Part shown: positions 58,830 to 61,415 of the stretch, piece after piece
Layout: each line of letters opens with the position of its first letter
Numbering within the stretch: position 1 is the stretch's first letter
From: an uncultured Planctomycetaceae bacterium
GTDB lineage: Bacteria; Planctomycetota; Planctomycetia; Pirellulales; Pirellulaceae
Length of the DNA stretch: 64,000 bases
Assembly (NCBI GenBank): GCA_937862885.1
Contig: CALMEE010000002.1
Span: forward strand, 1 to 64,000
Direction: 5' to 3'
Notes under the pieces: generated by a model
What the model saw: only the letters and a program-made list of their open reading frames with translations
The model's database searches: none
Told to the model about the DNA's origin: nothing
Program-made: the position numbers and the translations under genes

Positions 58830-59771
58830 TCAGCTCCGTCGTCGGCGCAGGAGAGTGAGACCCAACCCCAGGCTGCTCAGCAGCAAGCCGGCAGCTGGCT
58901 CGGGAATTGTGACAAACCCTACGTGGCGCCCGTCTCCGACATAGACCTGCGAACTGGTGCCCAAATTCACATCATAAACGTGGGCGCCCGTCCCACTGGT
59001 CCACAGGATATTGCCGTTACCCAATTGGTAGACACCACGAGCTCCCCCAGCAGTGAACGTGCTGATCGTTGCCCCCGTATTGGGGTCCATGCGGACAACA
59101 TTATTCGATGAGAAACCCGCGGCCAACACGTCGCCGTTGGCAGCAATAATCAGTTGGTGCGCAAAATTCAACGTGGCGCTGTTATGAAACGTTCCCAGAG
59201 AACTTCCCACCAAATCAAACCGATGGATATCATCGTTGGCGCTTGAAGAGGCGACCAGCAGCCCTCCCTGATGCTCGATTACCGAAAATGGACTTGGTGC
59301 CAACCCTGCTGCGTTAAAGAATCCCAAGTTGTTTCCGTTAGTATCGAACATCACAACGGCGGCGCCGGGTGCGTTGTTTAATGTTCCCGCGTTGGTCACG
59401 TAAATCGTGTTGTTGATCAATTCCATGCCGCGAATATTATCCAATCCTCCACCTGCGAATTGACCTCCAATATTTCCTAAGTGATTCCCGTTGAAATCCC
59501 AACGGGATATTCGATCGCCAACCTGTTCCGACACCCAGATTTGGTTGCCCACCTGCAACGCGCGAATCGGCGTTCCCGCCTGCAATCCGAAAAAGTTCGA
59601 ATTGACCACGGAACCATTAAACGGGTCAAAAAGTACAAGGCGATTATTTGTCGAATCCGGCATCATGAGGAATTGGCCTTTCGCCGAATTCACCATGAGT
59701 CCCGTCATCAACAAAACCATCCCGGCAATCGACATCATTAGTCGCGATAGCCAAGTATCCATAGACTTCAT
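58830..59771 (-). CDS. PEP-CTERM protein with NHL-like beta-propeller
   Basis: A 313-residue exported protein. The signal peptide covers about residues 1-32 (cleavage near AKGQ). The body is a repeated beta-propeller pattern (NRLVLFDPFNG, ISRWDFNGNHLG, NVVRMDPNTGATI), similar to NHL or SMP-30 propellers. The C-terminus is a PEP-CTERM tag (IPEP, hydrophobic stretch, RRRRS). GGAGG upstream of the ATG at 59771 fixes the start. It is the second exosortase substrate in the window. Confidence 0.9.
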   Translation of the reverse strand: MKSMDTWLSRLMMSIAGMVLLMTGLMVNSAKGQFLMMPDSTNNRLVLFDPFNGSVVNSNFFGLQAGTPIRALQVGNQIWVSEQVGDRISRWDFNGNHLGNIGGQFAGGGLDNIRGMELINNTIYVTNAGTLNNAPGAAVVMFDTNGNNLGFFNAAGLAPSPFSVIEHQGGLLVASSSANDDIHRFDLVGSSLGTFHNSATLNFAHQLIIAANGDVLAAGFSSNNVVRMDPNTGATISTFTAGGARGVYQLGNGNILWTSGTGAHVYDVNLGTSSQVYVGDGRHVGFVTIPEPAAGLLLSSLGLGLTLLRRRRS

Positions 59772-60263
59772 TTCCACACCTCCAAACAATTTAAACAATG
59801 TTGACAATCGGATGCGACGGGAAGCGCAGGAGGCACGCCGCGCATCAACCGACGCCATTTTGATCGAAAGTTAACGTAATTTCCACAACCTTTCGCAGTT
59901 TTTTGTGCCAATTTATACTTATCCAGCATGCTGGAAATGGTCGAAGCCGTGGCGAGACCGCTGAGACTTGGCCACAACCCAACGCCTCCACAAATCCCAA
60001 GCAAGGCACGCTATGATCTAATACTCCAAACGATTATCAGTCATTTTTGCGTTGTTTCGTCCATCCCCATTCCATCTGCTTCGATGCAGACGGCAGCATT
60101 TTCGTGGCCGAATGGCTACTAATCAGGCGTGTCTCGTGATTGCGCCGCGGTTAAGAAAGCACTCTGCGGCGGCAGGATTCGCTGAATCGACTTGATCATT
60201 GAAAACACGCGCAACTATACTGGTGAAAGAAGCAGTAAGAAACGGCGAAAAAAAGGTATATCG
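59772..60263. other. Divergent intergenic region before the selenoprotein candidate
   Basis: About 490 bases between two divergent exported-protein genes. It should hold both promoters. No RNA gene was recognised, and no tRNA-Sec was found here or elsewhere in the window. Confidence 0.45.
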
Positions 60264-61415
60264 ATGGGCTGTGCGAGAATGATTGCGTGGGCGGCGGTTC
60301 TGATCGGCTTCTGTGTCCATCCACTGCTCGGACAGGACGCGACGGTGGACGTTGCCGAGAAATGTGCCACCATCTGCCAACCCACGGATGCACCGTGGCG
60401 GTCAATTCCTTGGCAAATCGATTTGCTGGAGGCGCAGAGATTGGCCGTGGAGCAGTCTCGACCACTATTAATTTGGGCGATGGACGGCCATCCACTAGGC
60501 TGCACATGAAATAACGGTGTGCTCGACCGTGAGTCGACCTTTGCCGATCCCGAAATTCTTCAAATGCTGCGCGACCAGTTTGTGCCTGTTGCCATCGACC
60601 AATGGTACACTCGCCGCCAACAAGTCACCGAAGGGGACTTCTACCGCAAGATTGCCGGGCAGAGTCCCCGCAACGACTTTAGTCGCACGACTCAAGGTCT
60701 GTACATTGCTGACCCGGCCGGAAGATTGTACTTCTACAACAACAATCGTGGGCCGGACCGGATTCGGCGTTTCATGCGCGAAACACTGGCCGCTTATCAA
60801 GCGCCGGATGTCGAACCGTTGCAGCGAGAGTCGACCGACGCGCGGTATGTGACGCAACCGTCGGAGGGGACTGCCGTTGTTCGCTCCAGTGCGCGAATTC
60901 CCGAAGGTTATCTGACGACGGATGACCTGTGGCAGAAGATTTTTCAGACCGCCATCTCGCGCGACAACCTGTGGATCACACCCGATGAACAAACTGAACT
61001 GCTGGCCGACCGGGTGCCTGAACGGTTGATCCGCCGCATTGCTCGTTTCCATCTGGTGGACAACACGCGCGGCCAGCCCGATAGCTGGGCACTTGAAGAG
61101 ATCCAGAGCCTTGAGATGACAATCGTTGATGGGCGCATTTCGGGTCGAGTCGTTCTGGAGTCGAAAGATGGTAAACGCGGTTACGACGTGACGCTGGAAG
61201 GAATCGTCAGCGGAACCACTGGACGTGTCGAAAGATTTGACTTGCTGGCAGTCGGCAAATTTTTCGGATCCGGCCAGTACACGCTGCAGGCACCACCCGG
61301 AAGATTCCCTCTGGAGATCTCATTTCAACTCGTTGACGGAAGTGATACAGCTGACCGCATTCCACCGCACGCGTCACGCGGTTGGCTAGATGGATATCTG
61401 TACCCGGAACGCTGA
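60264..61415 (+). CDS. Exported thioredoxin-like protein with in-frame TGA (candidate selenoprotein)
   Basis: Two open frames are exactly in phase and separated only by TGA at 60507-60509. Read through, they give 383 residues with a signal peptide (about 1-24, ending LLGQ) and a thioredoxin-like pattern: RPLLIWAMDGHPLGCT, then the TGA, then NNGVLD, FADPEILQML and FVPVAIDQW. Residue 82 (the TGA) lies two positions after a Cys, at the site where Trx-like proteins carry the redox cysteine, so selenocysteine is plausible. A small stem-loop follows at 60523-60537. The ATG at 60264 has AAGG upstream. The alternative is a nonsense mutation; no other defect is visible. The C-terminal half (about 200-383) is an unknown beta-rich domain. 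Confidence 0.7.
60507..60537 (+). promoter_or_regulatory. Candidate selenocysteine TGA with SECIS-like stem-loop
   Basis: TGA is followed after 13 bases by TCGAC-CGTGA-GTCGA, a 5-bp stem with a five-base loop that starts 18 bases after the TGA. Bacterial SECIS elements have loops about 16-37 bases after UGA, with G (and often GU) in the loop, as here. The stem is short, and a competing pairing (GCACA/TGTGC at 60502-60506 and 60518-60522) exists, so structure alone does not prove it. Confidence 0.45.

Follow-up and report, generated by a model that had tools for sequence, protein, structure and literature searches.

A conserved in-frame UGA points to a probable family of exported selenoproteins with many paralogs in Planctomycetota

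Introduction

The stretch of planctomycete DNA that we analyzed (64,000 nucleotides; hereafter the window) contains a gene in which two phased open reading frames are joined by a single in-frame TGA, and this locus raises the question of whether that TGA is a stop, an error, or a codon for selenocysteine (Sec). An initial annotation of the window had proposed the last of these, that is, an exported, thioredoxin-like selenoprotein. The proposal is supported by the conservation of the TGA, by a covarying stem-loop downstream of it, and by a complete Sec pathway in the host; the gene is very probably a genuine bacterial selenoprotein gene.

Results

The gene and its in-frame TGA

A single gene of 383 residues is located on the forward strand, with an ATG at 60264, the in-frame TGA at codon 82, and a TGA stop at 61413-61415. 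The residues around the Sec codon are GHPLGCT-U-NNGVLDRESTF. The features of the gene and its upstream region are as follows:

60264..61415, + strand: very probable selenoprotein gene (reading frame; 80 relatives of the same architecture; dN/dS of 0.06-0.16 past the TGA)
60507..60509, + strand: predicted Sec codon TGA, residue 82 (TGA in 81 of 81 loci, a Cys codon in none)
60252..60256, + strand: AAAGG, ribosome-binding-like, 7 nt 5' of the ATG (sequence reading)
60264..60335, + strand: probable signal peptide, residues 1 to ~24 (hydrophobic N-terminus, by sequence reading)

The coordinates, context, and stop of the interrupted frame are all as the initial annotation had described them, and the AAAGG resembles the ribosome binding site that it had noticed. 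The N-terminus also reads like the signal peptide that it had proposed, and a hydrophobic N-terminus is present in most homologs for which the N-terminus is complete, so the product is probably exported. The source is a draft genome (5.36 Mb, 152 contigs, 94% complete) in which the gene is the sole match at E ≤ 0.001, both with the protein query and with the profile built from alignment A1.

The TGA is conserved in the core family

We scanned the genomes of 84,980 species with the protein as query, with Cys written at codon 82; the scan patterns left the Sec codon out, and a query with Cys should, if anything, favor Cys forms. The scan identified 86 relatives, and we retained the best 80; these are titled mostly as Planctomycetota and Verrucomicrobiota and share 33-73% identity with the query over the best segment. 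The aligned codon is TGA in all 81 loci (the best 80 of the 86 relatives and the gene itself), each gene has a single in-frame TGA ahead of its stop, and Cys occurs at the Sec codon in none of these 81 loci. Because TGA is found everywhere, the core family is without a Cys form among the loci examined. Purifying selection acts on the frame past the TGA (dN/dS of 0.06-0.16 in the pairs for which it could be computed).

These data also bear on the two least probable explanations. The initial annotation had recognized that a sequencing error, or decay of the gene in its relatives, would undo the selenoprotein reading, and a single stop that splits a frame in a draft assembly of 152 contigs could be either; the same TGA occurs in 80 other public loci from independent assemblies, with one TGA per gene and selection maintained beyond it, so the gene is neither decayed nor mis-sequenced and the probability of this explanation is negligible. 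Similarly, a GTG (60519) is located just 3' of the TGA, such that the locus might instead contain two genes, one for a short secreted peptide terminated by the TGA and another for a protein that starts at the GTG. We reject this arrangement as extremely improbable. The thioredoxin fold predicted by AlphaFold2 spans the TGA (strand 68-73 before it, helix 83-90 after it), and the residues that are invariant in 55 aligned members continue across it (among others, I70, W71, A72, M73, D74, G75, H76, P77, C80, Sec82, N83, N84, G85, D88, and R89); also, two separate genes would leave the stem-loop and the co-occurrence with selB, both described below, without a role.

A wider paralogous family

By sequence comparison, the window protein belongs to a larger paralogous selenoprotein family in Planctomycetota and their relatives. 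Profile searches across Planctomycetota identified distant subfamilies that keep the TGA at the same column in a variety of contexts (e.g., GNCLGFV-U-GNG, GGAPAAGC-U-TAGR, DEPLDRC-U-GYAAG, NEPLGVC-U-SAA, and ATGIGSC-U-SGGR); the nearby Cys is absent from some of these paralogs (GNCLGFVU, SPLSRTU), and one genome (G110) has as many as seven matches. With alignment A2, matches were found in 146 of 294 Planctomycetota genomes, and most of the full-length matches contain one TGA.

The initial annotation had named three conditions that would refute its proposal, and two of them (absence of the Sec genes, and an error or decay of the gene) clearly do not apply. The third was a lack of Cys in homologs at residue 82, which it had suggested searching for Cys or U; Cys homologs aligned at Sec are usual for bacterial selenoproteins but not essential. 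Surprisingly, U, as TGA, is what all of the 81 core loci contain; Cys occupies the column only in two distant thioredoxin-like relatives of ~290 residues or fewer (L141 and L142). The full-length stop-less copies that we fetched have Ser (four), Asp (two), or Arg (L110) at this column. The L110 copy appeared to be a Cys-for-Sec form from its placement by the HMM; an ungapped comparison with its neighbor instead aligns Cys with Cys and Arg with Sec. In four loci (L110, L130, L135, and L136), a Sec copy has, within a few kb, a neighbor that lacks the stop and carries Arg, Asp, or Ser at this column, and such stop-less copies may be non-catalytic partners of the Sec copies. Two divergent Sec members are found close together in three other loci (two copies in L111, members on both strands in L115, and two copies in L144).

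The stem-loop covaries as a SECIS element

The initial annotation had pointed to a small stem-loop with a GU-containing loop at a suitable distance from the TGA and had named covariation in homologous loci as a check on it:

60523..60537, + strand: putative bacterial SECIS core, 5-bp stem 60523-60527 / 60533-60537, loop CGTGA at 60528-60532 with GU at 60529-60530 (covariation; frozen synonymous codons)

The hairpin in the window is TCGAC / loop CGTGA / GTCGA. When the T of the TGA is numbered 0, positions 16-20 pair with 26-30 and the loop, CGUGN, occupies positions 21-25, that is, its center is ~20 nt downstream of the UGA. Taken singly, the window stem-loop is weak: it is not unusually stable (fold z-score of -1.0), and an Rfam search with the hairpin gave no match. 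Across relatives, it covaries far beyond chance. In the core family, 100% of the cells are paired and two pairs show double changes (C17-G29 to U-A or G-U, and C20-G26 to U-A), with all of the compensatory changes at third codon positions. In the paralogous subfamilies, for which the hairpins were registered by the loop CGTG (CGCG in one member; five copies lacking CGTG were excluded), 97.5% of the cells are paired and all five pairs have changed on both sides, compared with 26-43% paired in slid controls. The codons that encode the hairpin are also frozen: R89 is CGT in 54 of 55 members, S91 is TCG in 48 of 52, and D88 is GAC in 54 of 55; for comparison, the share of the top codon averages ~47% for conserved residues with 4- and 6-fold degenerate codons. 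In L075 (5139-5166) and the L114/L115 subfamily, GG replaces GU in the loop and the stem is kept.

The family co-occurs with the Sec pathway

All four of the genes that the initial annotation had suggested looking for are present in the host genome, that is, selA (570.7 bits), selB (367.9 bits), selD (374.6 bits), and a tRNA-Sec with the anticodon tca (UCA). The window gene is not adjacent to them; selA, selB, and selD are located on other contigs.

A TGA-bearing match to the family is found in 42 of 199 genomes of the same class. Without correction for shared ancestry, selB is present in 41 of these 42 genomes vs 58 of the 157 others (p=5e-14) and tRNA-Sec in 38 of the 42 vs 55 of the 157 (p=4e-11); the sole TGA-bearing genome of the class without selB (G190) is 88% complete. 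Among further hosts, Verrucomicrobiota included, selB was found in 45 of 50; the five assemblies without selB at the threshold include some that are small and partial. In eight loci (L022, L028, L030, L034, L042, L052, L054, and L080), a selD with a fused flavin oxidoreductase domain is located 0.1-1.1 kb downstream of the family gene on the opposite strand; selA and selB come after selD in six of these, and L034 and L080 show selD only, their contigs ending there. Two fuller loci (L156 and L157) contain the complete operon in the order selB-selA-selD, convergent with the family gene.

A conserved in-frame stop does not by itself name the residue that is inserted, so the TGA might be read as another amino acid (e.g., Trp) or by general read-through. 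We consider this very improbable: the stem-loop shows the covariation expected of a SECIS, the family tracks selB and tRNA-Sec and in some genomes is a neighbor of selA-selB-selD, and Cys occupies the column in the two distant relatives mentioned above. In addition, TGA is the final stop of the window gene and of 37 of the 81 genes, and is therefore a normal stop elsewhere; a different genetic code is rejected as well.

Together, these sequence comparisons show that the UGA at codon 82 is kept across relatives as a sense codon, with a covarying SECIS and in a genome with a complete Sec pathway. By analogy with established SelB biology, SelB and Sec-tRNA(Sec) would recode the UGA as selenocysteine; when selenium is lacking, translation would stop there and leave a fragment of 81 residues.

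Fold and active site

The structure was modeled by AlphaFold2 with Cys replacing Sec (pLDDT of 92 for the whole model and 91.8 for the N-terminal domain alone), and two domains are predicted:

60390..60797, + strand: predicted thioredoxin-fold domain, ~residues 43-178; C80 and Sec82 immediately precede helix alpha-1 (AlphaFold2, Foldseek, 3ira profile)
60861..61412, + strand: predicted C-terminal alpha/beta domain of unknown kind, ~residues 200-383 (confident model; no fold or family match)

The N-terminal domain alone matches structures of the Thioredoxin_7/DsbH/ERp18/AGR type in Foldseek with a probability of 1.00, and its profile matches 3ira with an E-value of 1.2e-4; the initial annotation had likewise read a continuous thioredoxin-like pattern from the sequence. 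For the protein as a whole, Foldseek found no match to the model in the PDB at E ≤ 0.001, a PDB search with the A1 profile gave no relative, no Pfam model scored above its cut-off, and NCBIfam gave no match. The initial annotation had described the C-terminal half as being of unknown kind, in agreement with the absence of matches to it in Pfam, NCBIfam, and PDB folds.

In the alignment with 3ira, Sec is aligned with the first Cys of CHWC. The C-x-U motif proposed initially, with Sec at the position of the catalytic cysteine, can be refined; because Sec replaces the first (nucleophilic) cysteine of CxxC, the motif is better written as C-x-U-x-x-G. In this site (C-x-U-N-N-G), the position of the nucleophile is kept, the second Cys is lost, and an invariant Cys is located at -2. 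This Cys is often the sole one in the mature part, which contains only one Cys in 44 of 75 full-length members.

The fold and the position of the residue suggest that the protein is an extracytoplasmic thiol/selenol redox enzyme, and we lean, with modest confidence, toward a disulfide-type redox role. Sec82 would attack the substrate (a disulfide, a peroxide, or the like) and would be resolved by Cys80 as a selenenylsulfide; the C-terminal domain probably sets the substrate or partner. The selenoprotein might instead act as a peroxidase that depends on selenium, or bind a metal or metalloid, a reading that we regard as possible though rather unlikely. One Sec with, usually, one Cys would suit a peroxidase equally well, Foldseek also gives weak fold matches to glutathione peroxidase, and the paralogs that lack a nearby Cys are compatible with such functions; however, the closest matches by fold and by profile are to disulfide-handling or related proteins (DsbH, ERp18, AGR, and DUF255), and no glutathione peroxidase or peroxiredoxin family is matched in Pfam or NCBIfam.

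Discussion

Relation to known families

Like Thioredoxin_7 (PF13899) and Thioredox_DsbH/DUF255 (PF03190), of which 3ira, 3f9u, 1sen (ERp18), and 3ph9 (AGR3) are solved examples, the window protein is predicted to have a thioredoxin fold and an export signal, as many members of those families do. Unlike them, it has Sec for Cys and Gly in place of the second Cys, its loop is longer and bears a Cys at -2, and its C-terminal domain is unrelated; its score with the PF13899 model is 15.9 bits vs a cut-off of 27. Two known types of selenoprotein are in the same broad class. The VPGUxxT thioredoxin-like (seleno)protein type 2 (NF041383) has a different motif and length; it does not match the window protein at E ≤ 1, and the few paralogs that match it do so weakly (best E of 0.003; 17.1 bits for the best paralog shown vs a cut-off of 275). 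The Trx7/PDZ selenoprotein (NF041199), also of the Thioredoxin_7 type, has a CxxU motif and a PDZ domain (PMC13188914); the window protein does not match this model, and its paralogs reach an E-value of 0.002 at best. The matches of the paralogs to the Thioredoxin_7, DsbH, VPGUxxT, and Trx7/PDZ models are all weak.

Selenoproteins are a known kind of protein, and the family described here is an apparently new one that is unusual for its Sec-only core. Selenoproteins from planctomycetes, the phylum of the window gene, have been reported, with fdhA and fmdB named in the main text of that study (PMC4807772); an earlier listing of the gene among its candidates (S9 Table) is possible. The family is not recognizable among the 119 prokaryotic selenoprotein families in a 2026 table (PMC13188914). 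The suggestion in the initial annotation that the family may be undescribed is consistent with that table and with the lack of a Pfam or NCBIfam model, and is tempered by the possible earlier listing. The family is large and apparently undescribed, and Cys almost never takes the place of its Sec. We think it probable that Planctomycetota and Verrucomicrobiota share an undescribed, paralog-rich superfamily of such exported selenoproteins, the core family of which exists in the Sec form only.

Searches for bacterial selenoproteins depend on Cys homologs. A core family without Cys forms would be filtered out by such searches, and this may explain why the family was missed; members are probably annotated as a truncated protein of 81 residues and a headless fragment. 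As an example, the deep-Sep method (2025) drops new candidates that have neither a known Sec homolog nor Cys matches, and its authors state that every known selenoprotein now has Cys homologs (PMC12013277). The family is common in planctomycetes with the Sec pathway, and a single genome can contain seven matches; it raises the question of which chemistry in the cell envelope is beyond Cys.

Genome neighbors

The genes counted near members of the family include some that, by eye, resemble sulfatase, DUF1501, and Gfo/Idh genes; these probably reflect the general gene content of planctomycetes. In the window, an exported repeat protein is encoded upstream of the selenoprotein gene on the reverse strand (58830-59858); the C-terminus of this protein, IPEPAAGLLLSSLGLGLTLLRRRRS, looks like a PEP-CTERM sorting signal.
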